The notes under the pieces are model-generated. The model did not search any database and was not told where the DNA came from. It saw only the letters and a program-made list of their open reading frames with translations. Position numbers and translations under genes: made by a program. Of a stretch of DNA of 29,127 nt, positions 4,378 through 23,372 are shown one piece after another; position 1 is the stretch's first letter; each line of letters begins with the position of its first letter. The DNA is from Zygnema cylindricum (Eukaryota > Streptophyta > Zygnematophyceae > Zygnematales > Zygnemataceae), in assembly GCA_037447655.1 (NCBI GenBank), contig JBBHKE010001783.1:1-29127 (forward strand), written 5' to 3'.

Positions 4378-5425
4378 TCAAACTCTAAGACCTCCATAAG
4401 TCCTCAGAGTGGACAGCTTCCAAGAAGCCTCTAGGATAACCCTGAACCCGTTGTGTTTCGGCAAAAATAACTGCCACCCTGACAGACAAAAACTCTGACG
4501 AACTTCACCCTTGTGAAGATAAGACTCCCCTGAGTCGATAGCAAAAAGAATCTCTGAATTTGCTCCCCTGAGCAGTAAGTTATGGAGGGTCAAAGTTGAC
4601 CTTTTGTACAGAAGCTCTCTGGGAGAGAGGGTCCTATCTTCTAATTTTTCTAAGTCCTATCTCTCTCACAGACTTTATCTACTGATGTACGGAACCAATC
4701 AAAATACAGTTCCGTACGCAAAAGTACAGTTGCCGGTGTACTTTATGTACGAACATTGTACGACATGGCCTAAATGTCCACACGTCGAATATCCGGATTC
4801 GCTCCTTTAATCCTCGGAGATGCTGCGCTAAAATATAACATCGCCACGTGTCATCCGATGTGGCGATGCCCACAAACCGCCGATTTCTTCTTCCGCGATC
4901 TCGGCGCTAATTCCGGCCGTCCGATTAAACTCGCATTTGATCGTAGCCGTAATAAATACATGCGCAGTATTTGTTTCGCTTACGAAATCAATGCGCGGTA
5001 TTGATTTCTTATCCGTACCGCAATTCGTACTTTTACACTACCATATCTATGTATCCCGTTAACAGTTATAGTTAAATGATTTATCCTACGTGTACATGTT
5101 TAAATCATTATCGTACTATATACTATGTAAGACTACTTCTAGACTTAACGGCTAAGGCTACCGGCTATCTACTCTCTTACGGCCGCCAGGTACCAGGATC
5201 AAATCCTGTCGCCGGCACAAACCTTTTAGTAATTAACTCCTTGACTAATATAAATTTCCCATAAACCTCAGGATAGCCTAGGTAGCCATGGCTCTAGCTT
5301 CCTCTCCAATTTCTGAGTGACTGCGACAAGTTTGAGAGTTGGAGAGAGAAGTTAGAGGTAGACTGCCTCGGCTTCTTTATTTCTATTCAGACCTAGAAAA
5401 TTCTTAAAAACCATTAATTTCTACA
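4378..5425 (-). repeat. EA 3' LTR (1048 bp)
   Basis: Read on the minus strand it starts TGTAGAAATTAATGG next to the polypurine tract and ends ...GGTCTTAGAGTTTGA. The end matches that of the EC LTR (GGTCTCAGAGTTTCA) with CA changed to GA. An ATG about 17 nt before the end could encode an N-terminus MEVLEF, like EC. It contains an antisense tRNA-like module and a CACGTG-bearing hairpin near 4838-4868. The TATA region is degenerate (TGTACAAAAGG). Confidence 0.88.
5141..5218 (+). other. tRNA-like module antisense to the EA 3' LTR
   Basis: On the plus strand, GGCTAAGGCT (A-box/D-arm-like) is followed about 55 bp later by CAGGATCAAATCCTG, a perfect 5-bp T-arm-like stem with a B-box-like core, and then CGCCGGCA. 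The opposite acceptor strand is not clean. The second copy is at about 7869-7952 in the truncated 5' LTR. Confidence 0.5.
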
Positions 5426-5438
5426 CTCCCCTTATTTT
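5426..5438 (-). promoter_or_regulatory. EA polypurine tract
   Basis: The reverse complement reads AAAATAAGGGGAG immediately before the 3' LTR, identical to E1, E2 and EC. Confidence 0.85.
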
Positions 5439-7573
5439 CTAGTCAATCTTAAATTTCGGACCACACTTCTCCCTGCAGAAAATTAGCTTAGGGGAAGGCA
5501 CAGGTTTGGTCATGATATCTGCTACCATCTCACTATTTGGTCGGTACTCTAAACTGATTATTTTATTTTCTACTTTCTCTCTAACAAAGCTGAGTCTGAT
5601 GTCCATGTGTTTGGCTTTAAAATGATGTTTAGGATTGGCAGAAATAGCAATTGCTGCCTGATTATCACAAAATATTTTCTACACACCACTCTTAAGATGA
5701 CCAAGTTCACCAAGTAAAGACTTGACCCACATTAATTCTTTTATAGCAGAGTAAGAAGCCATATACTCAGCCTCCATGGTGGACTGAGGAATAACCTTTT
5801 ACTGTTTTCTACTCCAACAGCAAGCCCCATCACCCACATATAATACATATCCAGAAGTACATCTCCTCATCGAAGCATCACCATAACTGGAATCACTCCA
5901 ACTAGTGATGTCAGTATTCTCCCCACCCAAATGCAACCATAGATCCCTAGTTCCTATCAAGTATCTAAGGACTCTCTTAGCTGCCTCCTAATCCCTCTTA
6001 GTGGGAGCATTTAGACTTCTACTCAGCACTCCTACAGCTGCAGCTAAATCCGACCGGGTACAGTTCATAAAATAGATTAGACTTCCCATTACTTGTCTGT
6101 AAGGAATAGTCTGCATGAACTTCTGTTCTTCAAGAGATAATTCCTCGTCTAAGACTATGACTCCTTCTTCCTCACTCCCCTCACTTCCCTTCTTCAACTC
6201 CATTGGAGTTGTACAACTATTAGATTTATCCATTTGAAATTTTTCAAGCATGTTCCCTATTGCTTCCTTTTGAGTCAATCTTATAATTTTTCTTTTTCGG
6301 TCTCTCTCTACTTGAATTCCCAAAATATATTTTGCTTCCCCCATATCCTTCATTTCAAATCTCCCCTTAAGATCGGTTTTCAGTTTATTAATTTTTTCCA
6401 TTGATTTACTTAAAACAAGCAAATCATCAACATAAATTGCAATAAATATAAAACCTTCCTCATCTTCGAAAACATAGATTGAGTGATCTGAGTTGATCCA
6501 GATATATCCTAGACCGGTAAGAAACTCATCAAGCTTCTTATTCCACTATCGAGGCGCTTGTTTCAAACCATAAAGAGATTTAATCAGCCGGCATACCTTA
6601 CTCTCCTCTCCTTCTTCCAAAAACCCTTCGGGTTGTCGCATGAAGATCTCCTCTTCCAATTCTCTAAGCAAAAAGGCTGTTTTGATGTCCATCTGGTGCA
6701 CTTCCATGTCTTCCGCTGCTACCAGGCTGAGAAGTATGCGGACGGAGGGAAATCTGACCACCGGGGCAAAGGTTTCCTCGTAGTCAATTCCCTTCTTTTG
6801 TGTAAATCCCTTTGCCACTAATTGGGCCTTGTAACGCTCGATTGTGTTATCTGGGTTCAGTTTTAATTTGAAAACCCACTTACAACAGATTGGTTTTGGG
6901 TTAGGTGGACAATCCACCAGCTCCCAAGTATGGGCTGCCATAATTGAGGCCATCTCCTCATTGATGGCTGTCTTCCACCGGTTTCTTTCCGGACAAGTCA
7001 TCGCCTCTCCATAAGTTTGAGGTTCATCTTGATGAGATAGTTTAGTTACCATGTTAATTACCTGTTTTTTTTGCAGTCTTTTGCTACTTCTCCTCCCCCT
7101 CTCAAAATCTGAGGCCGGAATAGATGGTTCTCGTGGATTCTTTCGAACAAACTCGGCTTCTCCCCTATCCCTTGATTCCGAATCGATTTCCACCACGTCT
7201 TCCGCTTCGAGTAGAGTTGTCACTAGAGTTTCCACAGCCGAGTCTTTTTCGGTCTGATTTGTTCTTGCAAGAATGTCATCTTCTCTAAAACCTGGATAGT
7301 TAGGAAGCTCAAAGTCATCGGAATTTTCTGACTCAAATCTGATTTTTACTGACTTCGTATATTTGAAGGGATCCACAGACTTTCCTTCATCCATAACTAC
7401 TAGATGCTTTACTAAGATTATATCTTCCCTTTTTAGATCATAAACTCTATATCCTTTAACATCTTCATCATATCCTAATAAGTATCCCGGTTTTCTTTTA
7501 GGATCTAGCTTCCAATTAGACCGATCTGTATCTAGACTGAATACTTGACTGCCGAAAACCTTTAAATGAGATA
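5439..7573 (-). pseudogene. EA: copia pol remnant (integrase C-terminus, RT, RNase H)
   Basis: A single reading frame runs from the LTR-pol junction at 7573 to a final TAG at 5439-5441, broken only by stops at 6546-6548, 5988-5990, 5799-5801 and 5679-5681. The four stops sit where relatives have Gln, Trp, Gln and His or Gln. Integrase C-terminus: SHLKVFGSQVFSLDTDR. RT: WVFKLKLNPDNTIERYKAQ, DIKTAFLLRELEEEIF and YVDD at 6423-6434. RNase H: SWSDSSYGD, STMEAEYMA, CDNQAAIAI and KHMDIRLSF. The catalytic Asp and Glu residues of RNase H are present. With no gag, protease or integrase core it cannot move alone. The upstream end is fused to LTR sequence, which supplies an ATG at 7605-7607 and makes an open 353-codon frame. 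Confidence 0.92.
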
Positions 7574-8159
7574 ATCGCCACGTGTCATCCGATGTGGCGA
7601 TGCCCACAAACCGCCGAATTCTTCTTCCGCGATCTCGGCGCTAATTCCGGCCGTCCGATTAAACTCGCATTTGATCGTAGCCGTAATAAATACATGCGCG
7701 ATATTTGTTTCGCTTATGAAATCAATGCGCGGTATTGATTTCTTATCCGTACCGCAATTCGTACTTTTACACTACCATATCTATGTATCCCGTTAACACT
7801 TAAAGTTAAATGATTTATCCTACGTGTACATGTTTAAATCATTATCGTACTATATACTATGTAAGACTACTCCTAGACTTAATGGCTAAGGCTACCGGCT
7901 ATCTACTGTCTGACGGCCGGCAGGTATCACGATCAAATCCTGTCGCCGGCACATACCTTTTAGTAATTAATCCCTTGACTAATATAAATTTCCCGTAAAC
8001 CTCAGGATAGCCTAGGTAGCCATGGCTCTAGCTTCCTCTCCAATTTATGAGTGACTGCGACAAGTTTGAGAGTTGGAGAGAGAAGTTAGAGGTAGACTGC
8101 CTCGGCTTATTTATTTCTATTTAGACCTAGAAAATACTTAAAAACCATTAATTTCTACA
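7574..8159 (-). repeat. EA truncated 5' LTR (586 bp)
   Basis: It corresponds base for base in length to 4840-5425 of the 3' LTR. The LTR start (TGTAGAAATTAATGG on the minus strand) is intact at 8159. The downstream part, with the promoter-proximal region and LTR end, is missing because the sequence jumps into pol at 7573/7574. Confidence 0.9.
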
Positions 8160-8164
8160 CAGGC
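8160..8164. repeat. EA target site duplication, right (CAGGC)
   Basis: CAGGC follows directly after the LTR start of EA and matches 4373-4377. Confidence 0.85.
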
Positions 8165-10239
8165 TATAGACTTTGTTACGCAAGGCAGGTGATTGTGATC
8201 TCCTATTGGTGAGAATCCAAATAAGGCTAAGATAACTACATAGATCTCTTGTATACAAGTTAGGTTAAGCACTCAGCTGTAGTTTTGATACTTAATCAAT
8301 TTTAAACGAATTTTCTGCTCATAATTCCAAGAGCACAGGAATTCTTTTGGAAGATTTGACCTTTGCTTTCAATATTTTCATGTGAAATTATCACGATAGT
8401 TTCAATGGTTATTTTCCTTGCTATTAAGCATTCTGTTGCCTAGCTCTTACTTTCCTTTCTTCTGTAAAACTGCCTTGCAATTTAATCTACACAGCTCACA
8501 TTGTGGCCTAACCGATTTTCCTTTCAATTCTTCTCTCGTCCTATCAAGTGGATTGTTGGTCAACCTTCGCTCTCAGGCTCTTGCTGAACTTGGGACTGTG
8601 ATTGAACAATTTTGGGTTTGCTCCTGTGGTTTGCTTGGTGATAGTGGGTAAGGGATGACTCTCTTTGTTTGTTTTGTGTGTGGCTAAATCGAGTTATCTT
8701 AGATTTTCTCGTGGGTTTCTACATTTTCAATTTATTTGTTGTGAAATGTAGGTTAGATCTTTATTAATTGAACTTCTGTAAAGAATATAAACTGACCAAG
8801 GAGCCTAGTGGCTATCCTTTGGCTTAATATTCTTCTGCTCTTGAAACTGTCTCCTTTCCCTATTTTCTGCAATTTGATATTTTTGTTTTTTCTATTTTAC
8901 TGCAAATTGACATTCTCAGTTTTTTCTCTATTTTTTGCATTTAAAAATTTTCAATATTTCTTTATTTTTTGCAATTTCAATTGATAGTTTTTCCTTTAGT
9001 TTTTCTGCAATTTGAAAATAGATCCTTGCATTTTGAATTTTTTCTGCCAAGTAATTGTTTGGTTTAAAAGAAAAACTAAAAAAAAACAAATATATACATA
9101 TATATATATTAACTAACTTTGCAGTTTTAGTCACTATTTGTTTGTTAGTTAACATTATTATTTCCTGGCCAGCATTTGGCAAAAAATGCTTTACATTATC
9201 TTAGGTATTTGGTTTTATTTATAGTCAAACTCTAGGTGATTAAGAGGCATTGATTGCTCACATTGTGACATACCTCACTAAGGAGTGGAGTTAATGGAGC
9301 GCATCTATTTTTAGCACCTCTGTAAAACTTTGGTTGCAGCGAACAACCATAGTTCACACTTGGCAATCACCAGATTGCTAAGAGTGGTTTGTAAGTATCA
9401 CAATGCATTGCGGGTGCAGCCGCGTGTCAGGTTAGTTTGTTGATCATGTAGAGGGTACGTGTGTGGATTGGGTTCAGTCGGACCTAAATGTATTGAGCAT
9501 TTGCATTATCAAACGTTTTCTATGCTTGCCATTGGACCTAATTGTATTGAGCATTTGCATTGTCAAACGCTTTCTATGTTTGCCATCTGGCCTTTGGTGG
9601 CCTTGTGTTGGTGTATGTTTGGAGTGGAATTTTTTGGTTTGATCTGGCCGTTGGTGGCCTTGGATAAAACTATTTTCTGCCTGCGGAGCTTTAGATCTGC
9701 ACTTCCAGGTGCTTGTTTAGCAATTTTGTGCTTTTATAGATGTATTCCTTTGGCCTTGCCCACTCGTTTACAGGGAAGAGGTTTCGGTTAAAGCGGTTGC
9801 CTGATTAGATTTGGCCATCGTGGCCTTGCTAGAGACTTTTTGAGATTGTTGCCTACGTGTGTGGCGTGGTTTGACATTCGATGCATTTCGTTTAAGGCGT
9901 ATCCGTTAGTCAATTATTTCTCATCTCCGTCACTTTTATGCCCACTGAATCTTGACTACCCATCCGGATCTACACGTAGTGGTGGAACTTTTCGTTCGAC
10001 CAATTTCGATCAAAAAAATCTGTTGAATTCAGTTCCTTTGCCGTCAAGTCGTACAATTTCATTTAGAGTGTCGTTTACTCACTTATATTTAACCTTCGTC
10101 TCATCTTTGTCATCCACTTCATCCACGCTATCTATGGAAGAGGTTGATAACGAAAGGGAAACCGATTCGGATTCTTTTTCCTTTTTGGTCTACGTTAGTT
10201 CGTAGTCAGGTTTCGACTTTGACTCACTCATTTCGTTTG
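8165..10239 (+). other. Region upstream of the methyltransferase-type retroelement; no gene recognised
   Basis: This is AT-rich and T-rich sequence without a supported gene. From about 8830 to 9060 a T-rich stretch repeats TTTTCTGCAATTTGA-like words. At 9480-9587 there is a 54-bp tandem duplication. An open frame at 9840-10205 ends in a Ser-rich, then acidic stretch and may be part of the gag N-terminus, but I see no domain. This could be the LTR and leader of the element starting at 10240; I could not find LTR ends or a primer site. Confidence 0.4.
9480..9587 (+). repeat. 54-bp tandem duplication
   Basis: Two copies, 9480-9533 and 9534-9587, both begin GGACCTAA and contain GTATTGAGCATTTGCATT. 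They differ at only a few positions. 54 is a multiple of 3, and the copies lie in one open frame (9459-9791), but the frame is not recognisable as protein. Confidence 0.75.
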
Positions 10240-11260
10240 ATGGCGTCCACATCGGAGGGCCCTCTAGGTAAACTTCATTTCTTATTTCCAGAAATGAAGG
10301 ACACTATGAGTTTATCCCATTTTTGAATGTTATTTGATACTGAAATGCGACATCTCGCTTTCCGTTATCAAGACCGATTTGACATGCATATCACTTTCTC
10401 ACTTCTAGGACGGTACCTTCGCGGTTCCGACCTTAAATTATATTCAGACAAGTATGATGGCATACTTGCAATTACTGAATTTTCTCCACCGTTTGGTGGT
10501 ATGCCTTAGGTCATAGGTCAAGCAAAGTTCCTTATCAAGCTGCCATTCCCAAGGTTTTAGATGCACAAGACAATGTTGTTTATGCCGCGATTGTAGAGGT
10601 TCCCCATCAATATGCCATTGCACCACGTGTTGTCGTCTCGGCACGTCCTGGGATGATAATTTCGTTATAAGACCATTTGACAATCATATTTGATCTGTTA
10701 CAAGAGGAGTATCGTATGCAAAATCCGGACCAAGTTAGGGAATTAATGATTTTTTAGCGTAAACCGTGCGAAATTGCCTTCGCTTTACGAGCCCGCATGG
10801 AGACCTTGCAGGAAGCTTAAGCCAATCTAATGTCGGATGCTAAAGTTCTTCAAAAGTTTGTTGGACAGTTTCCTTTCCAGCCTAAGAAATTTTTCCAAAC
10901 TCACTTTACTCAAACATACGGTCTCAAATTCACTTTTGACCAAGCAACTCAATACGCGGTTGAATACGAGATGACAAATTGTTGGTGGGAAGCTCACGAT
11001 CGACCAAAAGCACCTTAAAAGAAACCAACTCCTTTCAATCAACCAAATCCTTGTAAGCTAGGGCCAAACAATCGGCCACTGAGGGTTCCTGCTATGGGAA
11101 CTCCTCCAAATCAACCATTAAATCGAATTTGTTTTTGATGTGGCAAAACCGAGCATGATGCCCGGATGTGTCCGAACAAATTTGCAACCTGTACACAGTG
11201 CAAATGGATCCGTCATTTTTGTATCGTTGCCACATTAATAACTCTAAATTTTCAAATCAA
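10240..11260 (+). pseudogene. Decayed gag with zinc knuckle (MTase element)
   Basis: The reading begins at ATG 10240 (MASTSEGPLGKL), with in-frame stops at 10324 and 10507 and later frame changes. The best preserved block, about 10780-11018, reads RARMETLQEA, then LMSDAKVLQKFVGQFPF and FDQATQYAVEYEMTNCWWEA, a helical capsid-like segment. A proline- and asparagine-rich linker follows. The zinc knuckle is at 11130-11171: Cys-X2-Cys-GKTE-His-DARM-Cys, the CX2CX4HX4C pattern of nucleocapsid, with a TGA replacing the residue before the second Cys. A second Cys/His cluster (CTQCKWIRHFC) follows at once. Calling it gag rests on the knuckle and its place before protease; the capsid part is not matched to a named family. 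Confidence 0.6.
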
Positions 11261-12290
11261 AATCATATTCGAAATGGCGGAATCCCAGAAAGATTTGCCT
11301 AGCTAGTCTAACTGGAAAAAGAGCCAGAAAAAGATTCTCCACCTAAAGTGTCTTGGAGAGGAAATGCAAACTCAAATGGCCGCCATGATTAAAGACCAGT
11401 TTGCAGCCCTTATGGCTCAAATGAAGCCGCACACTCACCTAATTGGTATGGCCTGTACAATTGTCCATCTTCCGACGCTAGCTGGTCGAGTTTTCTTAGA
11501 TTCAACCATCCAAAAACGGGCAACCACGTTTGAAAAGGGCACAGTTAACCACAATCGCAAGGGTTAACAATGTAGCACTCGTTTTTTTTTATCATTTTCC
11601 AAAGAGACACTAACTAATTAGCCCAAAACAGCTTCCACCATCACGGCGGAAGCACTCACTATTCTTAACCGCTCTATTCAGGACAGTTATAGGGTTAAGG
11701 AAATATTGTGTATTTTATCTACTATGATTTCCGATTCCCCCAACCGTAAAATTACCCTCTCATCCGTCACATCTGCAACTTTACAAGCTTTGCAAATGAA
11801 TCCTAATCTGGAAGCTCTTAGGCCTATCGTTGCTGAAGAGCGTAGTTCATTTGACCCACACATCAATTTTATGGATAATGAGAAAGGTGTTTTTTTTGTC
11901 AATAGTGTCATACCGTCATTACCACTTATGGACACCGCTGCAAAACTAGTTTTTTTGGGGTCATCTTTTGCACTCAAACAAGGTCTGACAGCTAATAAAC
12001 TTCAGTCCACTGCTACACGTTTACTCACCTCAGCGGGAATAACCAAACCATTTGTAAGCGTTACACAAGATCCACTCTGTTTTAGGTTCCATAATGTTGT
12101 AGAATCTAATCTTGCAGAGGTCTGTGCTCACGTATTGGTGACCAAATGTAGTGATTTCGAGTGTCTAGTGGGGCAAGATGTGATTTTTATATTAGGAGGA
12201 GGCGTTGACATGTATGATCAAACATTTTCCTACCGTTCTACCAACTATCTGAAAAAGAATAATTGTCTACCTCTAATTTCCGCCTGACAA
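11261..12290 (+). pseudogene. Aspartic (retropepsin-like) protease of the MTase element
   Basis: The frame 11706-12287 (193 codons) is open. It contains PLMDTAAKLVFLGSSFALK around residue 76 (Asp codon 11931-11933), the place of the LDTGAS active site, followed by the usual ALKQGLTA helix. The end reads CLVGQDVIFILGGGVDMYDQ, like the LLGxDxL...IDxxxQ end of retroviral-type proteases. The catalytic Asp is kept, but Thr-Gly-Ala-Ser has become Thr-Ala-Ala-Lys, so activity is doubtful. Upstream, 11261-11700 holds a linker with KDQFAALMAQMK and several stops. The next domain, the methyltransferase, follows within about 100 bp and would be cut from the same polyprotein. Confidence 0.65.
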
Positions 12291-12369
12291 CCCAAACCCA
12301 TTATGGCTCACGCAGCCAAATTTGTTCCTACTTCCTCTCAAAATTCGGTAGGATCTGACATTTTCCATT

Positions 12370-13520
12370 CTCTTTCAACAGAGGAATTTTTTTTCCGACA
12401 TCCCCTCCTTGCCGGAAATTTTCGATAATCTAGGATTTGTGATTGATTCTCGCGAATTTGATCACATTTCTAGACACACACTTCAGATTCCCCTATCCCA
12501 AGTCCCTCATTTTCTCGTTTCAGTGGATCCTTCAGGTTTTCTTCTAATTTATTGGAAACCAGTACATCTTAACCCTCACCAAGACGGTCTAGTCATTTTA
12601 GATATATTTGCAGGCATAGGTACTTCCCTCGTTTCATGCCTTCGCAACGGATTACTCAGTCAACACTGACCCTTTAGCTCGGAAAGCCCAGCTACACCAC
12701 TATAACCTTTTAGACAGACAATATCCGCATCTGTTTCCTAAATCCGCATTTACTCATATGCACACAGCCTTACCTTAAGACATTCGCCTGATAAGTTATC
12801 AACACCTTCTTGAGGTGGAACCAATCGTTCTTTTCTTTGCCGGTTGGGAGTGTCAAGAGATGTCACCACCGAGCAAAGGTCTCGGCTTGGCTGATCCTCA
12901 CACTAAATTTTTCTTTGAACTAATTCGCATTATGCATTTTCTTCAATTTTTAGATGGATCATTGGGATCTTTTTAGAAAACGTGCCAGCACACAACAATC
13001 CTTGACCTACAGTTTTAGCTGATTACAAGCAGATAAAGCAATAATTGGTCCTCCTTTTATAATTGATGTCGTTTGTCAGGGTTCCTTTGCCCATCGAGTT
13101 CAATTTAAATGCACCAACTTGATTGATATTGGTCGCCTAAGAGAAGGAAATATTTGAATCACACCCCCTTTTACAGATATTCAAACAACACTTATCCCTT
13201 TCCATAAACATGTCTGCAGCCTGATCACCCGCCCAATTACAACATTAACGTCTCGAGTCTACCACTGAAAGTTCTTCCCACTCTAGTGTCTTACCCACAC
13301 TCTGACGCTTTTTCCAACGATGGGCCCGGCTTGCTCAAAAATATTCACACCGGCGGCTTAGATAAGCCTACAGCTAAAGAACGAGAACATCTCATGCATT
13401 TCCTTCTAAACACTACAGTTGCTCACGGTCTCACAGAACGATAACGCTGCATCCTTTTAGGTCGTGATATGGACCCTCAATCTCTCTCATTTATCTTAGG
13501 CTTTGGATTTGCAGCAGGTC
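12370..13520 (+). pseudogene. C5 cytosine DNA methyltransferase domain, decayed
   Basis: The conserved C5-MTase blocks appear in order across three shifting frames. Motif I (S-adenosylmethionine binding) is LDIFAGIGTSL at about 12598-12630. Next comes NTDPLARKAQLHHYNLL, an acidic ribose-binding-like region. Motif IV with the catalytic Cys is AGWECQEMS, Cys at 12851-12853, then GKGLGLADP and FFFELIRIMHFLQ. Motif VI is FLENVPAHN, Glu-Asn-Val at 12976-12984. A motif VIII-like block, GSFAHRVQFKCTNL, is at 13080-13121. Motif IX/X-like ends are REHLMHFLLNTT, LTER and LLGRDMDPQSLSFIL at 13379-13488. The product would transfer a methyl group to cytosine C5 in DNA. Stops (for example 12777, 12974, 13442) and frameshifts near 12640, 12960 and 13020 show it is dead. 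Motif IV has Glu-Cys instead of the usual Pro-Cys. It sits between protease and RT, so it was part of the polyprotein. Confidence 0.82.
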
Positions 13521-14153
13521 GTTACACACAAACCCATCCATCTCAACCACCAAAGGGGGGAATGCATCATCATCAATTGTAACCTCTAAACACATACCTA
13601 CACGATCTCCTATCACACTCAGAGGGACACGTTCTCAATTTTTCATATTGCCATCCCCCTATACAACCTTCACCAAAGGTCACAATCTACGACTTTTTAA
13701 ATCCAAGTCATAGTCCATCCCGGCCAATAGTGTTGCCCAATTTGCTTCCACAAGTCATACATCAACAGCTTATTACCTGATTACAACCTTTTTTACTCGT
13801 AGCTGGCATCATTGGACAAATTGTTTACAGCAAACACCTATCAATTACTCGTTAGGTCAATCGCTTATCACAGATGAACAGTTGTCTTTTGCACAGGCCA
13901 TGGAAGCGATGAAAATTAAAATTTCGAAACCTCCTAAATGGAAATTTGGGGCTAATCTCTCTCAATTTGAACATAATTTACTGAACAAAGTGATTCTCCA
14001 AAAAATCGATGCTTTCGCTTTCTCTATTAATGATCTTTGTCGCCATACAACCTACAAAATGTTTATAGATCTTGAAGATGATCGTCCTATTATCAAACCA
14101 AAACACCGTTTATCTAAAACAGAATGGAATTAGTGGATCGACCTTGCGCTGAA
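13521..14153 (+). pseudogene. Linker and reverse transcriptase N-terminal region (MTase element)
   Basis: After a Pro-rich, stop-filled linker, an open stretch from about 13850 to 14133 reads LSFAQAMEAMKIKISKPP, then INDLCRHTTYKMFIDLEDDR and PIIKPKHRLSKTEW. This resembles the segment ahead of the fingers of Ty3-type RTs (an acidic-Pro-Ile box, then a K/R-x-R-x-S block). A one-base loss at about 14130 shifts the frame; the shifted frame continues ELVDRPCAEC and stops at the EB LTR at 14154. The palm with its YxDD box lies beyond the break and is absent. Assignment as RT is by position and these short blocks only. Confidence 0.5.
14149..14153. repeat. Expected EB target duplication, left side only (CTGAA)
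   Basis: CTGAA abuts the EB LTR end (TGCAATT... at 14154). The matching copy would be beyond the EB 5' LTR, which is lost at the 15930 junction. Confidence 0.35.
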
Positions 14154-15151
14154 TGCAATTATGTGTCCTCCATTGGACTACAGAATACTGGAAGCCTCTA
14201 GATAGCTACTAGCTAACCCACTTTCAATGGCAACCAGTGCTACCCAAGCAGACAAGCAGACAATATAATTGCACCCTTGGGCAGCCTAGACTCCCCTGAG
14301 TCCGTAAGAAAAAAAATCTTTGAAAACGCCCAACCAAGCGATAAGTTATGAGGCATTAAAAATGCAAATTTGTACAAACTCTCAAGGAGAGAGGTGACTT
14401 CCTACCAAAATTTTCTAAGTCCTGATTCCCTCTAATAACTTCTATCTAATGAAGTACGGACCAATCAGATTATTGTACCGTACCAAAAAAGTACTACTGC
14501 CGGTGTACCTTTTGTACGACCTATGTACGACAAGGCTATTAAGCGGACGCGTGTCCACTTTTCACTCGTCCGTTTTTCCTCGAATTCCCGCGACCGAATG
14601 TTATCTCTCCACATGGCGCCAGGTCATGCCACGTCACTAAACGCCAAAGTGACCATTCCGGGATCCCGGTGATGATGTGCGCTATCGGATATGAACCAAA
14701 ATGCAATCTCATCTGTCATAAATACTTGCGTGGTATCCGTTTCAAAATAGTATCGTACTTTTACTAAACTGTATCTATGCATGTCGTATACACTTTCACT
14801 TAAATGAATTCGTTTACTCCTAAATAAATATATATCTATCATACCCTACAACATTTAGCATTGGTCCTAGTCTAATAAGATATAGCTAACTGCTATCGGC
14901 CAACTTGACGAACGGTAGGTAACGGGATCAAATCCCGGGTCTGTCATGTATATTTTTAGTAACCTACTAAAAATAAATGCTTGTTAAACTTAGGCAGCCA
15001 TGGATCAACCAACCTGTCTATCCTTCAGTGACTACAACAAGTATAGGGGCTAGAGAGAGCAGGTGGAGGCAGGATGTCCATCCTTTTCTTTTCCTTTTAT
15101 ATTAACATATTTAAACCTAGAAAATACTCTAAAAATCTATTAATTTCCACA
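14154..15151 (-). repeat. EB 3' LTR (about 998 bp)
   Basis: On the minus strand it starts TGTGGAAATTAATAG and ends ...CACATAATTGCA. Its end aligns with the E1 LTR end (CCAATGGAG...AATTGCA), including an ATG at the gag start position. It carries the tRNA-like module (about 14880-14948 on the plus strand), a TGGCGCCAGGTCATGCC block with a decayed G-box, and a degenerate TATA region. It interrupts the RT region of the methyltransferase element. Confidence 0.86.
14880..14948 (+). other. tRNA-like module antisense to the EB LTR
   Basis: TAGCTAACTGC (A-box-like) is followed by ACGGGATCAAATCCCG (T-arm-like, B-box-like) and GGTCTGTCA on the plus strand, which is antisense to the LTR. No paired acceptor stem is seen. 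Confidence 0.45.
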
Positions 15152-15164
15152 CTCGCCTTATTTT
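15152..15164 (-). promoter_or_regulatory. EB polypurine tract, one base changed
   Basis: The reverse complement is AAAATAAGGCGAG, one substitution from the tract of the other four elements, directly before the LTR. Confidence 0.75.
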
Positions 15165-15930
15165 CAAGTCTAAATTTACCTTAAGTTTTAGTCCACATTT
15201 TTTTCTAAAATATTTAAAATTTAGGAGATGGTACAGGTTTTGTCATCATATCAGCCACCATTTCCTCATTAGCTCTATGTACAAGATTCACAATCGTATT
15301 CTCAACTTTTTCCCTCACAAAACTCAATCTTATGTCCATATGCTTAGCTTTAAAATGATGTTTTGGATTAGGTACAATTGATATGGCAACTTGATTATCA
15401 CAAAACATTTCATGTACTCCCTCCTTGATATACCCCAATTCTTGCAGCAAAAACTTGACCCACATCAACAATTTCACAGCAGAACAAGATGCCATGTACT
15501 CGGCCTCCATAGTAGACTGAGCAACCACCTTTTGTTGCTTACTGCTCCAACAGCATGCACCTTCCCCAGCATGCAACACATACCCAAAAGTGCATCCTCT
15601 CATTGGTGCGTCCCCATAACTGGCATCACTCCAAGTAGTGATGTCAGTGTGCTCCCCTCCCAAATGCAACCATAATTCTCTGGTTCCCACCAAATATCTC
15701 ATGACTCTCTTGGCTGCCTCCTTGTCTCTCTTCCTTGAATCATTACAACTCCTACTGAGTACTCCAACTGCTACCGCTATATACGGCCTGGTACAGTTCA
15801 TAAAATAGATTAAACTTCCTATGACCTGTCTAAAAGGGATAGACTTCATAAACTCTCTCTCCTTTGGACTCATTTGATCATCTAAGATCATCACTCCTCC
15901 TTCTACACTCCCATCACTTAGTTTTTTCAT
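15165..15930 (-). pseudogene. EB: copia RT tail and RNase H remnant
   Basis: An open frame of 238 codons (15930-15214) begins in the RT tail (KKLSDGSVEGG, SPKEREFMKSIPFRQVIG, SLIYFMNCTRP) and covers the whole RNase H: TTWSDASYGDAPMRG, SSKQQKVVAQSTMEAEYMA, FCDNQVAISI, KHMDIRLSFVREKVE, ending MTKPVPSPKF. All the RNase H acidic residues I expect are present. It stops early at 15214, before the usual CxxKC end. The RT palm (YVDD) and everything upstream are missing because homology ends abruptly at 15930, where a copia protease in the opposite orientation begins. The ATG at the start is simply internal sequence. Confidence 0.9.
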
Positions 15931-18900
15931 GTAAATGATAGATCATCGATTCAGGTGCATCCATGCATATGTGTCATGACAAGTACCACTTTACCAAGCT
16001 AAGAAAGATCCCCACTATAGAGATAAAGTACGGGGATGGGAGAGTAGTTACTACAGGTCTTGTTGGATCGGTAAATCTAAAAGTCTTAGTAAAAGGTAAG
16101 ACTTCCATACTCACTTTCTCACATGTAGTTTATATCCTTCAGTTGAGCAAAAATCTTGTCTCTACTTCTATATTAGATGATAAAAAGTTTGATACCTTTA
16201 CTAGAAAGGGGGTCTTTACAGCTAAGTATGGGGTTGAAGTCTACTTTATAGCAGATAAGGGTAGCCAAGGAATGTTTAGGCTTAACTTGAACAATAAAAA
16301 GAATAATGCTTACTATGTTGGTGTCCCAAAATTGATGATTTGGCATAAGCGGTTGGGGCATGTGCACTTTGTTAGGCTAAGGGAAATGAAGAAGCTTCGT
16401 GTAGTAGAAGGCATTTAGCTTGGGGATAATAAAATGGTGGATGATTGTAGTGGCTGTGCCCAAGGTAAGGTTCACAGACTTCCATTTCCCAAAATTGCCA
16501 CATATAAAGCAGAAGAGTACTAGATGTGGTCCACACAGATATCACGGGACCAGCAAAATTACCTTTGGTAGGAGGTAAGAGGTTCATAATGACAATTAGT
16601 GATCACTGGTCGAGAAACTCTAGAGTCTACTTTTTAAAAACAAAGTCTCAAGCACCAAGTTACTTCAAAGAATACAAAGCTTGGAGTGAGAAGTTGCACG
16701 AAACCCCCATTAAGAGAATAAAAAGTGACTATGGGGGAGAATATACCTCTTACTAGTTTGAGGAATATGTGCGGGATGAAGGAGTTCAGCATCAGAAAAC
16801 TGTACCTTATAATCCAAAACAAAATGGGGTAGTTAAGAGGTTGAACCGGACTCTAGGAGATAGCGTATGTAGTATGATGGCTGACAAAATGATAGGAAAA
16901 AGTTTTTGGGTTGAAGCCATGAACTGCACTAACTACATTAATAATAGAGTCCTTACCTAAGCTGTGAAAGGAATGACACCTTATGAGAGATGGGCTGGAA
17001 GGAAACCAAATATCTCTCACCTGAAAGTATTTGGTAGTCAAATTTAGAATCTTGACACCGATAGAAATAACTGGAAACTAGATGCTAAAGGATAACCAGG
17101 ATACTTTGTGGGATATGATGAGGATGTCAAGGGATATAGAGTTTATGATTTGGCTAAGCAAGATATCATTTTGGTAAAACATATAGTTGTCATGGATGAA
17201 GGTAAGTCATTTGATCCTTTCAAATACACAAAAAAGATAAAAATCAGCTTTGAGTCCGAGGGTGAGGAAGACTCAGATCTTCCCAGAAGAGACATGATTG
17301 AAAAAATGATTGCAGATTCAGAGGAGATCCACGATGAAAGAGATAAACTGGAATTTGCCGATATCCCTACAAACTTCGAGGAGACAAAAAAGGAGGAGAT
17401 AGAACCAACTTCCGTGGATAGGGGAGACGATGAGATTGTGAGGAGGAACCCCAGACTTCCCTCCATCCCACCTTCGGACTCTGAAGGAGGACAAAGGAGG
17501 AGCAAAAGGTTGCGAGAAAGACAATCCGCTCACAAGGTAACTATGTTGTCTCACCATGATGAGCCTCAGTCATACTCAGAGGCAATGGATAGTCCGGAGA
17601 AAGATAGATGGGTTAGAGCCATAAATGATGAGATGGCATCCATCATGGAAGCAAATACTTGGGAACTAGTGGACTCCCCTCCGAACACAAAACCGATCGG
17701 GTGTAAATGGGTGTTTAAGCTAAAACTAAACCTAGAAAATACCATTGAAAGATATAAGGCTCAGTTGGTATCAAAGGGGTTCACTCAAAGATAAGGGATA
17801 GATTATGAAAAGACCTTTGCTCTTGTGGTACGGTTCTCATTAGTAAGGATTCTCCTTAGTCTAGCGAGAGCGGAAGACCTGGAATTACACCAGATGGATA
17901 TTAAGACCGCCTTCCTCAATGGTGAACTAGAGGAAGAAATCATCATGCGCAAACCAGAAGGGTTTGTAAGGGAAGGTGAGAAGAGCAAAGTCTACAAACT
18001 TATAAAGTCCTTATTTAGACTAAAGCAGGCTCCCAAGCAATGGAATAAGAAAATAGATGAGTTTCTCACCACTCTGCGATATATCCGGATTAGTTCAGAC
18101 TAATCTATTTATATGTTTAAGGATGAGAATGGTGTTATTTTCATTGCAATTTATGTGGATGATTTGCTGGTGTTAAGTAAATTTATGGAAAAGATCAACA
18201 AGTTAAAGAAATATTTTAGAAGAAGGTTTGATATGAAAGATCTAATAGAGGAAAGATATATCTTGGGCATACAAATGGAAAGAGATAAGTGGAGAAGGAT
18301 TATCAAACTTATTCAAAAAGAAGCTATAGGGAATATGCTCGAGATATTCAAAATGGGAAAGGCAAACAGTTTTACCACTCCCATGGACTTGAAAAAAATA
18401 AGTGATCGGAGTGTACGAGAAGGAGTGATAATCTTAGATGATCAGATGAGTCCCGAAGAAAGACAGTTTATGAAGTCTATTCTTTACAAGCAGGTTGTAG
18501 GAAGTTTAATCTACTTTATGAACAAGACTAGGCCGTATATAGCGGTAGCTGTTGGAGTTCTAAGAAAGAGTCATAATGATCCTAGAAAGAGAGACTTGGA
18601 GGCAACAAAGAGAGTCATGAGATATCTGGTGGGAACAAGGGAATTATGGTTGCAATTGGGAGGGGAGCACACTATCATCACCACTTCGAGTGATGCAAGT
18701 TATAGATATGCACCTATGAGAGGATCCACTTCTGGTTATGTATTGTATGTGAGGGAAGGTGCTTGTTGTTGGAGTAGCAAGCAACAAAGGTGGTTGTTCA
18801 GTCCACTATGGAGGCTGAGTGTATGGCCTCTTGTTCTACAGTGAAAGAATTGATGTGGGTAAAGTCTTACATTACAAGAACTGTTACAAGAACTGGGGTA

Positions 18901-19166
18901 CATGAAGAAAAGGGTGCATGAAGTCTTTTATGATAATCAGGTTACAATTACAATTGCAGCCAATCTAAAACATCATTTCAAAGCTTAACACATGAACATA
19001 TGGATGAGTTTTGTGAGGGAAAAAGTTGAAAACAAAATTGTGAATCTTGTGTATAAACCAGATGGAGAAATGATTGCTAATATGATGACAAAAACCTGTG
19101 CCCTCACCCAAATTGAAATATTGTAGAGAGAAGTGTGGACTAAAAGATAATTTTAAATTAGACTAG
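15931..19166 (+). pseudogene. E2: decayed copia pol (protease, integrase, RT, RNase H)
   Basis: It starts within protease: IIDSGASMHMC, with Asp-Ser-Gly-Ala-Ser at 15948-15962. Integrase follows with its His2-Cys2 zinc site (HKRLGHVHF, DDCSGCAQGK), a first Asp in HTDITGP, a second Asp in IKSDYGGEY, and a Lys (AAG, 16835-16837) where the third catalytic acid, Glu, is expected in VVKRLNRTLGD. RT has YVDD at 18152-18163; RNase H begins TTSSDASYRYAP and is then frameshifted near 18790. A frameshift between 16418 and 16526 and in-frame stops at 16416, 16754, 16958, 17792 and 18101 (among others) inactivate it. The final TAG is 19164-19166. There is no gag, primer site or 5' LTR on its left. Confidence 0.92.
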
Positions 19167-19179
19167 AAAATAAGGGGAG
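19167..19179 (+). promoter_or_regulatory. E2 polypurine tract
   Basis: AAAATAAGGGGAG lies directly before the E2 LTR. Confidence 0.85.
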
Positions 19180-20179
19180 TGTTGAAATTACTAGATTTAT
19201 GAAGTATTTTTTAGGGTTGAATAGGTTAGTGAAAACAGAAAAAAAAATCATAGACAGTTTGCCTTCACCTCCTCCCTATATCCCCTATACTTGTCGTAGT
19301 CACAGAAGGAAAGAGAGGGTGGTGGAGCCATGGCTGCCTTCGCTCCTTAGGCAGGTCAGAAGAAGTGACATTCTAACAAAAAGGTTAAGTCCGGCAAGAC
19401 TCGAACCTCTGACCGACAGAGCAAGGCGTAGCCGTCAGCCTTAGCCAGTGTGTCGATCAAGTCAGTTACAGTACATCGGGTATAATTAGTAATTAAATGT
19501 GTCAGAGATCACTAATCCGATTAAGTGATTTACAAATAAGTAACATAAAAATAAATTGGATTAAAGTGCGAACATGAAACCGCACGAAACAAATTTACCG
19601 GACATCGATTTTCAACGGCTAGCATTCAAAGTACTTTTGGATCAGACGGCGCGTATCATCGCCGAGATCGCAAAATGGTCGCTTTGGCAATTTTAGGGCT
19701 AGACATGACCTGGCGCCACATGGCGAGATAACATTGGGAAGCGGGAATCTCGGAGAGCATAAAGGCGAGTTCAGAGTAGACAAGCGTCTATTCAATGGCC
19801 GAGTCATACAAAGACCGTATAAAAAGTACATTGGTCACAGTACCTTTTTGTACTTTACAGTTATATGATTAGTTCGTACATCAGTTGAAAGGGGTTGTGA
19901 GAGGGGTTTAGGACTTAGGAGATTTAGGAGGTAGCCGCCTCTCTCCGAATGAGCTTGTATATATTTTGGCATCTTTGCCACTTGATAACTAATTGTCTGG
20001 TTGGGCATTTCTATTTATTTCTTTTGATGTGGACTCAAGGGAGTCCAAATTGCACAGGGGTGCAGTGAGATTGTTTGTTTGCGTACTTGGGTATTTGTGA
20101 TCCTAGCTGAAGAAGTGTTAGTCAAATACTATCTAGAGGCTTCCTAAATTTTGTAGTCTAATGGGGGACACAGAATTGA
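19180..20179 (+). repeat. E2 3' LTR (about 1000 bp)
   Basis: It starts TGTTGAAATTACTAG and ends near ...ACAGAATTGA; the expected terminal CA has lost C. Related end sequence includes an ATG at 20161 (MGDTEL). It holds an antisense tRNA-like module (about 19388-19455), a TGACCTGGCGCCACATGG block and a TATA-like TATATA at 19958-19963. The exact right end is uncertain by about 6 bp. Confidence 0.82.
19388..19455 (-). other. tRNA-like module antisense in the E2 LTR
   Basis: On the minus strand CTGGCTAAGGCTG matches a Pol III A-box (TRGCNNAG) and GGTTCGAGTC matches the B-box (GGTTCGANTC), about 40 bp apart. This is the best preserved instance of the module. The acceptor stem is absent. Confidence 0.55.
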
Positions 20180-20193
20180 AAATCATAGCACCG

Positions 20194-20198
20194 TACCG
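20194..20198. repeat. EC target site duplication, left (TACCG)
   Basis: TACCG directly precedes the EC 5' LTR and is repeated at 24567-24571. Confidence 0.95.
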
Positions 20199-21391
20199 TG
20201 TTGGAATTCAAGTATTTTCTAGGTCTAGAGATTGCAAAATAAAAAGCAAAATAGTAGATATTGACAGCCTGCCTCTAACTCCTCCTCAAGTCCCCACACT
20301 TGTCGCAGTCACTGAAGACTGAAGGAGGAGTTAGCCATGGCTGCCTGTGCTGTCTAGAGGGAGACAGACAGTTGTTTTATAGGGGGTTTTCTGTAAAAGA
20401 TAGTTTCGCCAGGTCCAGGATTTGATCCTGGTACCTGCCACTTGTCAAACCGACAATAGCCGGTAGTCTTATCCAGATAGTCTTAATTATATTAAATATT
20501 AGGAGGTATGATATTTATTTAAATAGTTACTATAAGAATAATTCATTTAACTAGAACTATATGGATACTGCATAGAAACAGTTGTGGAAAGTACGACGTA
20601 CGGTACGATTACGAAATAAATACCGCGCGGTTTGTTTGACGCCGGAAAGAATACCGCGCAGGTATTTATGACGGCCACGATTGAAATCCAAATTGATCGG
20701 ACGGCCGCGAAGGATGCCGAGATCGCGGCGTACGATTTTGGCGGTTTGCGATCACCGCCACATTAAGTGACACGTGGTAACACTACATTGGATTGCGGCA
20801 ACTCCGGAGATTACGGGAACAAATCCGGATATGACACGTGTCGACATTTTTGCCATGTCGTACAGTGGCCGTACATAAAGTACACCGGCACGTGTACTTT
20901 TATGTACGATACAGTAATTTGATTGGTGCCGTACTTCAGTAGATAGAGTTTCAGAGAGGGAATAGGACTTAGATAAATTTTGGGTAGGCAGCTGCCTCTC
21001 CCAGAGAGCACCCTGTATAAATGGCAAACTTTGGCCAGCCATAACTATCAATTTACTTGACCATTTTCAGTGATTCTTTTTGCTGCGGACTCAGGGGAGT
21101 CTAGGCTACACAGGGGTGTAGTCGGTCAGAGTTTTTGTCTGCCAGGGTGGCTGTATTTCTAAGGGAAAGTCAAAGTGGGTGAATGTGTCCAAATCTCATA
21201 TTCTAACTTTGCATTCTGTGGTGGAACTGAGCACACAGAAAGTGTTATTTCACAGGGGTGAATCTATATTGGGGTTCTGACTGTCAAGGGGTCAGTCACT
21301 TGGGTTTATATTAACTTGGAGTCGGCACTATCTAGATTAGCTTCTTTTGGATCTGCATACTCTGAGGGCCAATGGAGGTCTCAGAGTTTCA
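20199..21391 (+). repeat. EC 5' LTR (1193 bp)
   Basis: It runs from TGTTGGAATTC to ...GAGTTTCA. It has a TATA box (TATAAA, 21016-21021), a CACGTGG G-box near 20771, an antisense tRNA-like module (about 20400-20480), and the gag ATG at 21372, 20 nt before its end. Compared with the 3' LTR it lacks one T in a CCAAAT(T)TGATC run. Confidence 0.95.
20400..20480 (-). other. tRNA-like module antisense in the EC 5' LTR
   Basis: CCAGGATCAAATCCTGG on the minus strand forms a perfect T-arm-like stem-loop, preceded by TACCGGCTATTG shared with the EA module. An identical copy is at about 23575-23655 in the 3' LTR. Confidence 0.45.
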
Positions 21392-23354
21392 GGTTATGGG
21401 CCCACCATCTAGGGTGCCTATGTTTGATGGAACAGGCTTCACGTATTGGGCGTTTACAATGGAGGGATTGCTTTTCGAGAAGCACTTATGGGGAATTGTT
21501 GCGGGACAAGTGAGATGTCCGCCACCTAGCTTTGGAGGAGCTTACTACGGAGAATCATCTGAGACTGTCCAGAATATCACCCGGAGTTCAGATGCAACGG
21601 AAGGTGAAGGGAAAAACCTTTCCGTGGATGGGGAAATAGGGGAGAAGGAAAAAGGGACACCTATGGTGAGGGGAGCTAGGCTCTCAGCTATGGTACCACA
21701 TGTAGGGATTAAAACTGAAGAAAATGACAGGAAAATATGGGAATACAAAAACACTATAGCAAAACATCTCATACTTAGATATGTGTCTAAGTCGATAGCT
21801 ATCACTCTTTTAAGTCTAACCAAGTCTTCGGAGATATGGGAAGCACTAACTCAGATTTATAAGAGTGAGACTATTCAGAGGCGGCAATTAGTAAAACAAG
21901 AAATAGATGCCTACGTTTATAAAGGCGGTAGCATGATAGAGTTTTGTAATGATATTGCTGCGTTATATGTTGAGCTTACTAGTGCGGGATATGTAGAATC
22001 TGAGGAGAGTAAGATTAATACACTAATTATGAAACTCCCAGATGAGTACGAAAACATAATTTGTCGTATGCAGGCAATGGATGGCTCCTCATGGACTTGG
22101 AGCTTTACCATGGGGATAATTCTTGTGAGGGAAAGCACTTTGGAGCTTCGTAGGGGAAAGGACAGGGTCAATGCATTTTCAGCTGGTGGTGATTGGCGGA
22201 ATCGTGATGAGAGGAACGGCGGTGACGAGCGGAAGCGTGATGAGAAGAACGGTGGTGACGAGCGGAAGCGTGATGAGAGAAAGAAAGACAAAGGTAAACC
22301 TTATCGGAACTTTGGTGGAAAGAGAGGGAGAGGAAAAGGCACGGGAGCTTTGAAAAAAGGGGTTTGCTTCTTTTGTAGGGAACCGGGTCATTATATGGAG
22401 GAATGCCCTTGTTTGGAAAAACTTAGAAGTTGGAATGTGGATGAGGAGGACGAAGAGGAAGAGGAGAAAGAGGATGAAGAAAAATTGGAGCTTCTTCACA
22501 TCGGTAGAATGGGGAAGAGAGAAAAGTACACAGAAATAGGACGAAGGCAACAGTGTGCTTTTGGAGGTATAAGGGAAGTAAAGAGAGAGGAGATACTTGA
22601 GGATGTCAAGGAGTGTAGAGTATATGATTTAGAAATGAGAAAGTCAGATCTAGGATCCATAAGTGAAAACGGGAAAGATAAAATTAATGAGGATAATTTT
22701 ATACACAATAGGGAAACAGAAAACTGGTCGGAAAGGGAGACTTCAACGGATTCCGAGGAAAGGGGAGAAGTGAAACTCGAAGAGGTTTTAAAGGATAGGG
22801 GAGAAGAGAAATATTTGATTAAAGGTTTAGGGGAGAAGAAATATTTATTGGGAACTAAATTAGAAAGTAATAGTGGAAAGAATTCCATGGAAGAGAGTGA
22901 GGGAAGTTCAGAAAATGGGGTAATTATCATGGATAAAAATATGAGTACGAAAGATATAGATCTTATGAGGAACTTAGTGGGGACTAGTGGTTTTTGGGAA
23001 TATTTGGGGGTGGATGGATTTGACATCACTACTTGGTGTGACGAAGATGTGCCTGTAAAAGGGTTAGCATCTAGGTGTATGTTGCAGATTGGAAATGGGG
23101 CTGGCTATTTGGATCGCAAGAGGGAAATCGGTTTGTGTGTGGATGAAAGAGTGATGAAGTGGATAAAATCTTTGCTTGAATTTAAGAAAAATGGGATGTT
23201 AAATAAAATGTGTGATATAATTATCATTTCAGTTCATTTAATGCACTGTGTTAAATACTTAAGTTTTATGAAAGGAAAAGGAAAAAGGAAAAAGAAAAGG
23301 AAAAAGGGGAGGGGATGTTTGTTTACTTGTTTGTGGGAGTTGAAAGAAAAATAG
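21372..23354 (+). CDS. EC Gag fused to a condensed, inactive Pol remnant (660 aa)
   Basis: The ATG is in the 5' LTR and the frame crosses the primer site. Residues about 16-45 (VPMFDGTGFTYWAFTMEGLL) and 115-240 (KIWEALTQIY-like helices, RRQLVKQEID, MIEFCNDIAALY, MKLPDEYENI) are the copia capsid (UBN2-type) region. An RDERNGGDERK 11-residue unit repeats at about 278-303. The CCHC zinc knuckle CFFCREPGHYMEEC is 332-345. An acidic Glu-rich stretch follows. Then come short in-frame pieces of pol: EDVKECRVYDLE (410, integrase end), IKGLGEKKYLLGTKLE (483, RT), NGVIIMDKNMS (RT tail), LVGTSGFWEYLG and DITTWCDE (535 on, RNase H) and KWIKSLLEF. DSGAS, DDE, YVDD and EAEYMA are missing. A basic tail, KGKGKRKKKRKKGRG, has no match in relatives. 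No stop or frameshift interrupts it, which argues for selection on the protein or a very recent origin. Confidence 0.9.
   Translation: MEVSEFQVMGPPSRVPMFDGTGFTYWAFTMEGLLFEKHLWGIVAGQVRCPPPSFGGAYYGESSETVQNITRSSDATEGEGKNLSVDGEIGEKEKGTPMVRGARLSAMVPHVGIKTEENDRKIWEYKNTIAKHLILRYVSKSIAITLLSLTKSSEIWEALTQIYKSETIQRRQLVKQEIDAYVYKGGSMIEFCNDIAALYVELTSAGYVESEESKINTLIMKLPDEYENIICRMQAMDGSSWTWSFTMGIILVRESTLELRRGKDRVNAFSAGGDWRNRDERNGGDERKRDEKNGGDERKRDERKKDKGKPYRNFGGKRGRGKGTGALKKGVCFFCREPGHYMEECPCLEKLRSWNVDEEDEEEEEKEDEEKLELLHIGRMGKREKYTEIGRRQQCAFGGIREVKREEILEDVKECRVYDLEMRKSDLGSISENGKDKINEDNFIHNRETENWSERETSTDSEERGEVKLEEVLKDRGEEKYLIKGLGEKKYLLGTKLESNSGKNSMEESEGSSENGVIIMDKNMSTKDIDLMRNLVGTSGFWEYLGVDGFDITTWCDEDVPVKGLASRCMLQIGNGAGYLDRKREIGLCVDERVMKWIKSLLEFKKNGMLNKMCDIIIISVHLMHCVKYLSFMKGKGKRKKKRKKGRGCLFTCLWELKEK
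21392..21407 (+). promoter_or_regulatory. EC primer binding site: internal initiator tRNA-Met (half-tRNA)
   Basis: GGTTATGGGCCCACCA follows the LTR end without a gap. It is the complement of the anticodon-arm region of plant initiator tRNA-Met (TGGTGGGCCCATAACC, recalled), not of the tRNA 3' end. This matches the half-tRNA priming known for Drosophila copia. The site lies inside the gag reading frame. Confidence 0.8.
22203..22279 (+). repeat. 33-bp in-frame tandem repeat in EC gag
   Basis: The unit starting CGTGATGAGA begins at 22203, 22236 and 22269 (the third partial). It encodes the charged RDERNGGDERK repeat just before the zinc knuckle. Confidence 0.85.
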
Positions 23355-23359
23355 ACTAG

Positions 23360-23372
23360 AAAATAAGGGGAG
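23360..23372 (+). promoter_or_regulatory. EC polypurine tract
   Basis: AAAATAAGGGGAG lies directly before the 3' LTR. A second, longer purine run lies at about 23270-23315 and codes for the basic C-terminal tail. Confidence 0.9.

Follow-up and report, generated by a model that had tools for sequence, protein, structure and literature searches.

How does a cytosine methyltransferase (MTase) come to lie amid retrotransposon debris in a streptophyte genome, and does it belong to the element or to the host? The question is raised by a 29,127-nucleotide stretch of Zygnema cylindricum DNA (contig JBBHKE010001783.1, our C1335; hereafter the window). An earlier note had read in it a fossil element with a captured MTase and the order gag, protease (PR), MTase and RT, with C5-MTase motifs lying on one strand between an aspartic protease and the start of an RT. 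Translation of 12280-13620 recovers the motifs at the positions claimed for them: DIFAGIG, AGWECQ, FLENVP, AHRVQFKCTN and LLGRDMD follow in order over three plus-strand frames with stops. Motif I, the catalytic Cys, ENV and HR are linear, rather than permuted as in DRM, both here and in two genomic relatives, L012 and L016.

The window's own letters carry the identification part of the way. A single-frame Pfam scan gives DNA_methylase an E-value of 0.16 at best, and a frame-by-frame comparison of 8160-14155 with Pfam returned no DNA_methylase at E <= 1, zf-CCHC (0.87) being the sole match. Read-through queries, in which frames were joined and X was placed at stops, bring the MTase to E = 0.0033 and 17.3 bits against Pfam DNA_methylase (cut-off 22 bits) and to E = 0.0012 and 18.5 bits against NCBIfam dcm (cut-off 100.65), in both cases below the cut-off; PHROG_116 'DNA methyltransferase' (E = 1e-5) and PHROG_363 (6.5e-5) are matched as well. 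Hence, the expectation of a DNA_methylase match in the window itself held for the read-through query, below the cut-off, and failed for single frames. The PDB gave 19 matches: DNMT3A takes the first 16 places (E = 0.014-0.1), DNMT3C comes 17th (0.7) and the final two are unrelated. Decisive is tblastn with the domains of L012, a copy with one open frame: its MTase finds 12478-13561 at E = 5e-85, the longest piece containing nine stops, its PR matches 11844-12260 without a stop (62% identity, E = 4e-58), and its domains together lay out gag, PR, MTase and RT in this order on a single strand.

A phage origin was considered and rejected. Phage sequences gave no blastn match to 12300-13600 and distant tblastn matches only (72 records, the best 20 of 72 at 21.7-29.2% identity). 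Those of the best 20 with an annotated function are DNA methylases, which supports the identification as a C5 MTase and not close kinship. Three IMG/VR loci encode C5-MTase-like ORFs with 37-41% identity over a short piece; the other IMG/VR scans and both GTDB scans yielded no relative.

The element itself, judged by its stops, frameshifts and tblastn matches, is a dead and truncated retrotransposon copy, a fossil as the earlier note had held. About 6.0 kb remain on the plus strand (~8161-14154), in the order partial terminal repeat, gag, PR, MTase and RT start (Table 1). The counterpart of the partial repeat in L030 lies 3' of the coding part (blastn). Of the gag zinc knuckles, one is clear and interrupted by a stop and the other has decayed. 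On the right, homology to L019, L027 and L030 ends at 14154 (blastn). Self-blastn pairs 14154-14728 with 3277-2696 and 14989-15932 with 2397-1457; Copia LTR homology stops at 8160 and resumes at 14154, a Copia element thus adjoining both ends. As Copia takes over at these two points, what survives is a remnant without most of the RT, the RNase H, the integrase and the 3' end. Searches of the window for tRNAs and Rfam families found nothing.

Table 1. Features of the MTase-bearing element and its right-hand neighbour in the window
Feature	Coordinates	Strand	Evidence
Partial terminal repeat A (putative)	8161..8523	+	blastn, 76% over 369 bp to L030:9537-9901
Element 5' leader	9066..9890	+	68-69% to leaders of L017, L021, L022, L029
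Gag remnant	10240..10973	+	tblastn, L012 gag query: E 9e-57 and 2e-31, 5 stops
Gag CCHC zinc-knuckle remnant	11130..11222	+	Translation; Pfam zf-CCHC E 0.008, below cut-off
Aspartic protease within 221-aa open stretch	11622..12287	+	ORF list; tblastn 11844-12260
DNMT3-type C5 cytosine MTase, frameshifted, with stops	12352..13561	+	Motifs, profile and PDB searches, tblastn
RT start	13960..14130	+	tblastn, L012 query: 72% identity, E 6e-22
Neighbouring Copia LTR and pol, outside the element and bounding its cut end	14154..15932	-	Self-blastn

Other elements crowd the window. A minus-strand Copia at 4465-8160, with an LTR pair 96.4% identical, abuts the MTase-bearing element at 8160. In 14154-19340 two Copia pieces of opposite orientation join near 15932-15942, a junction that appears to be a rearranged or nested insertion. 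At 20198-24566 a young element has repeats 99.7% identical on either side of a single 662-aa ORF; read by eye, this ORF is a Copia gag fused to Copia pol remnants, and the element resembles a non-autonomous derivative.

Could the MTase instead be a pseudogene of a host DNMT3 that came to rest beside retrotransposon debris? The window PR and RT, queried alone, have no match in Pfam (E <= 1) or the PDB (E <= 10), which would suit such a reading. Structure prediction for this PR without an alignment is uninformative (pLDDT 36). The source assembly (352.8 Mb, 2689 contigs) speaks against it. The window DNA from 11600 to 14150 has at least 41 other genomic matches (40 of 488 candidates were scored), of which 23 cover at least 2471 of the 2551 bases at 77-80% identity, the remainder being shorter pieces; the PR-MTase-RT linkage therefore recurs, up to the RT start, in other copies. 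A PF00145 profile search found at least 123 C5-MTase matches, many in long open frames (123 of 782 candidates were scored, and some matches may be parts of one element); the window's decayed MTase is absent from these 123. We sampled the copies as 20 stretches of 9.9 kb, ten of 2.5-2.8 kb and ten flank pieces, and L012 runs in a single frame through all domains. The recurrent linkage, this ORF and the tblastn matches to its domains refute a host pseudogene, which we regard as scarcely credible.

To elaborate on the open-frame copies, L012 (contig C1344) is a single 2395-aa ORF encoding Gag-PR-DNMT3-RT-RNase H-integrase-PHD finger. Its Pfam matches, all above cut-off except zf-CCHC and zf-H2C2, include DNA_methylase (2e-11), RVT_1 (1.4e-29), RT_RNaseH (2.6e-34), Integrase_H2C2 (4e-15), rve (1.7e-11) and PHD (1.5e-9). 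Its gag has two CCHC knuckles, and its protease, which reads LMDTGAK...CLVGQD, matches nothing in Pfam at E <= 0.01; Asp_protease_2 appears below cut-off in L013, L014, L017 and L022. The Ty3/gypsy order of gag, PR, RT, RNase H and rve integrase, in which PR is assigned by homology and motifs below the Pfam cut-off, is found in L012 and others, and the window retains gag, PR and the RT start. A further 13 ORFs keep their domains in the L012 order. Searching the genome for intact copies and asking whether MTase, PR and RT are linked, as the earlier note had proposed, thus bore out its reading: DNA_methylase, RVT_1, RNase H and rve all score above the Pfam cut-off in open-frame copies. Beyond that note lie the A-B-A-B repeats, the two subfamilies described below and three domains that the window copy has lost, namely RNase H, integrase and PHD finger.

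These subfamilies, A and B, are deeply separated and share a common coding layout; the window belongs to A. Over the longer pieces they are 37-43% identical in the MTase, ~46-50% in RT, 58-66% in RNase H and 53-58% in the integrase (IN). The common layout suggests that the MTase was captured once, before A and B split. Among the 13 ten-kb loci of subfamily A, 11 have the PHD finger, which is absent from the sampled stretch of L018 and L019. A related finger occurs in 5 of the 7 ten-kb subfamily B loci (L015, L016, L024, L028 and, with a stop, L026) and was not found in L023 and L025; its Pfam scores of 21.5 bits (L015) and 17.5 bits (L016) lie below the 24-bit cut-off. The L012 finger matches 87 PDB sequences at E <= 0.001, the best of 60 of these 87 being PHF12 (3.7e-16). 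In a midpoint-rooted PR-MTase tree of 23 sequences including the window (L031, too short, was omitted), the window groups with L033, L032, L034-L040, L019 and L030 on an older branch and pairs with L033 at a support of 0.87; L012 and L014/L021 stand on branches of their own.

As to its class, the MTase is, on the evidence of similarity, kin to DNMT3, because DNMT3 ranks first in the PDB for the window, L012 and L016. DNMT3A/B/C make up the best 29 of 44 matches for L012 (E from 1.4e-10), followed by bacterial HhaI at 0.0028, and DNMT3 the best 29 of 56 for L016 (E from 1.3e-14), followed by HhaI at 4e-5; permuted plant DRM2 matches L016 at ~0.001. To our knowledge, a Pro before the catalytic Cys is near-invariant in C5 MTases. 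It is present in B, where all nine stop-free loci printed (six distinct places) read GWPCQ, and in the three IMG/VR relatives (FPCQ, YPCQ, FPCQ), and it is absent from A, where all six stop-free copies printed and the window read GWECQ. Since a Glu precedes the catalytic Cys in A, catalysis in this subfamily may be altered.

Codon models drew on those 14 of 37 MTase-match loci in which a single stop-free piece covers 80% or more of the domain; the other 23 were dropped. The resulting omega values are free estimates from IQ-TREE: for subfamily A, 0.083 in the MTase (seven sequences, two nearly identical), 0.035 in RT, 0.025 in RNase H, 0.038 in IN and 0.154 in PR; for subfamily B, with a B reference, 0.308 in the MTase (four sequences) and 0.042 in RT (three). 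Hence, the MTase appears to be under purifying selection in both subfamilies, although its rate of evolution in these models is higher than that of RT, RNase H or IN. Most A pairs are saturated at synonymous sites, and ratios from pairwise counts exceed the codon-model omega: 0.21 for the A MTase (2 usable of 15 pairs), 0.35 for A IN, a median of 0.38 for A PR (one pair at 1.07) and a median of 0.31 for the B MTase (28 of 36 pairs, three places counted twice). CpG observed/expected ratios of 0.63-0.87 amount to moderate depletion, and those of younger and older copies overlap, a measure that does not bear on self-methylation either way.

The Glu of the subfamily A motif is also the starting point for another explanation, namely that the MTase has been kept for a non-catalytic role, such as binding nucleic acid or a structural one, above all in A. 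The uniform GWECQ of A as against the GWPCQ of B would agree with this, as would the gypsy DNMT of Klebsormidium, which gave no methylation in yeast, a result its authors call inconclusive (de Mendoza et al. 2018, PMC5890265). Set against it are the catalytic Cys, conserved in every copy printed, the motif I, Glu of ENI/ENV and HR motif retained in L012 and L016, and the low omega of the subfamily A MTase. We consider such a role improbable and retain a catalytic MTase as the preferred reading.

The repeats show how these elements might integrate. All three subfamily A elements examined (on C1344, C1915 and C829, in this order throughout) have direct repeats in the arrangement A-coding-B-A-B, with A repeats of 931, 1475 and 1388 bp (100, 99.5 and 99.6% identical) and B repeats of ~243, 192 and 190 bp (99.5-99.6% identical). 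In each, A starts with TGTCATGCCG and B finishes with GCACGACA; the TG...CA ends are flanked by 4-bp target duplications (TTGG, CCCT and AAGG). Short duplications of this kind, here of 4 bp, are as made by an rve integrase. At the inner B-A junction, GCACGACA-GC-TGTCATGC, the element ends meet with GC between them, and a G-run 5' of B1, found in the same three elements, could be a polypurine tract. These elements thus have A-coding-B-A-B in place of the two complete terminal LTRs of gypsy elements. They also depart from DIRS retrotransposons, having an rve integrase, no tyrosine recombinase and 4-bp duplications, whereas DIRS elements, as far as we know, make no target duplication. Subfamily A is, to judge from its sequence, a DIRS repeat layout joined to retroviral-type integration marks. 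Terminal repeats were not found in the two subfamily B elements searched (C1374 and C544, ~15 kb each). In L018, A repeats lie inverted on either side of a broken copy (1-797 and 8145-8934), as if two elements stood head to head.

How does this family compare with known systems? Chromodomain gypsy elements, or chromoviruses, likewise carry a chromatin reader at the integrase C-terminus, but it is a chromodomain, not a PHD finger, and they are not known to carry an MTase. DNMT retroelements have been described in Symbiodinium and Klebsormidium nitens (PMC5890265). The closest, KnitGypsy-Dnmt3 of K. nitens, shares with the Zygnema family (i) a DNMT3-type MTase in a gypsy Pol ORF; (ii) DIRS-like repeats despite gypsy domains; and (iii) purifying selection on the MTase. 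The comparison is with its description in the text, and the differences are provisional: a terminal PHD finger is part of the Zygnema polyprotein and PHD occurs 0 times in the main text of that paper; TG...CA ends with 4-bp duplications mark Zygnema subfamily A, and the text mentions target duplications for a LINE only; and Zygnema has two deep subfamilies, one with GWECQ. SymbioDIRS-Dnmt3 of Symbiodinium resembles the Zygnema family in its DNMT3-type MTase in Pol and its A-coding-B-A-B repeats but has a tyrosine recombinase where the latter has an rve integrase, whereas SymbioLINE-Dnmt shares a retrotransposon-borne C5 MTase but is a LINE without LTRs and not of the DNMT3 class (PMC5890265). 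Elsewhere, DNA-methylase transposons are stated to be absent from land plants (PMC6338049), and some DNMT3 members to lie within elements termed LTR Copia and DIRS, in keeping with earlier reports from streptophytes and dinoflagellates (PMC12344493). At the level of titles and abstract openings, the open-access matches listed held no other report of gypsy elements with a PHD finger, or of bryophyte or zygnematophyte elements with a DNMT. Hence, as far as the published text shows, the kind itself is known, and what is new are the PHD finger, the integration marks, the WECQ subfamily and the depth of the family; the Zygnema elements could nonetheless match the published Klebsormidium ones in every respect.

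What, then, might the MTase do? When expressed in yeast, the DNMT domains from two copies of SymbioDIRS-Dnmt3 methylated CG sites (PMC5890265), a precedent for activity of the Zygnema enzyme. In L012 the MTase is fused between PR and RT in one frame, and thus would be physically coupled to reverse transcription. We propose that it methylates the element's own cDNA, through the following steps: (i) the MTase would travel with RT inside the particle; (ii) it would methylate the newly made cDNA de novo; (iii) incoming element DNA would thereby carry host-like methylation before integration; (iv) the PHD finger on the integrase would bind histone H3 tails and so tether the integration complex there; and (v) host enzymes would maintain the methylation of the element after integration. 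The earlier note had suggested that a transposon able to methylate DNA could mark its own copies or evade the control of its host, which may be so. Alternatively, the MTase might act chiefly in trans, with the host genome or other elements as its targets. The retroelement DNMT3 domains active in yeast were freely expressed (PMC5890265), and the copy number of the family is high, with its 123 or more scored matches, both of which would favor action in trans; against it stands the very fusion of the MTase between PR and RT, and we hold it to be unlikely. The explanation that we favor as a whole, a dead copy with Ty3/gypsy domains from a Gag-PR-DNMT3-RT-RNase H-IN-PHD family with the above steps of cDNA methylation and tethering, is in our judgment quite probable.

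DNA methylation is the usual means by which transposons are kept silent, a relation that elements carrying an MTase reverse. Here the family is large, some of its members are young, its two subfamilies have diverged and it bears a histone-reader finger, which makes the role of the captured enzyme directly testable. Such a family also suggests that PHD fingers and DNMTs of retroelements may be tallied by annotation pipelines among the regulators of the host. More tentatively, the several peculiarities may belong together, although we would not expect all parts of this to hold: an rve-integrase lineage would unite a chromatin writer, the DNMT3-type MTase, with a chromatin reader, the integrase PHD finger; its split-repeat form would replicate, with the integrase opening the internal B-A junction; subfamily A would have undergone the WECQ shift; and the fingers would be linked to an expanded PHD family in the host. 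The 360-Mb assembly of Zygnema cf. cylindricum SAG 698-1a has 73.3% repeats (Copia 29.8%, Gypsy 5.9%), and its PHD family, counted among the transcription-associated proteins, is at least 9-fold larger than in other Zygnema strains (PMC9915684, preprint). If SAG 698-1a is the host and this combination is true, the PHD fingers of the elements would explain that excess of at least 9-fold.

Finally, some observations concern the assembly at large. It contains no match for rbcL, though 5 of 14 control genomes were matched, and thus probably does not include the plastid genome. A search for Dirigent matched neither the assembly nor any control genome. The light-harvesting proteins are those of a green plant, probably a streptophyte. 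Chlorophyll a/b-binding proteins give 88 matches, with LHC gene clusters on both strands of contigs C519, C2590 and C1116. One light-harvesting exon is CP24/Lhcb6-like, its best PDB match being CP24 (E = 5e-95). An LHCII exon matches first a multi-domain LHCI-2 chain and then 8htu_U and 7xqp_a, which we take to be chains of moss photosystem I, with pea LHCII close behind (1e-100 versus 8e-98).
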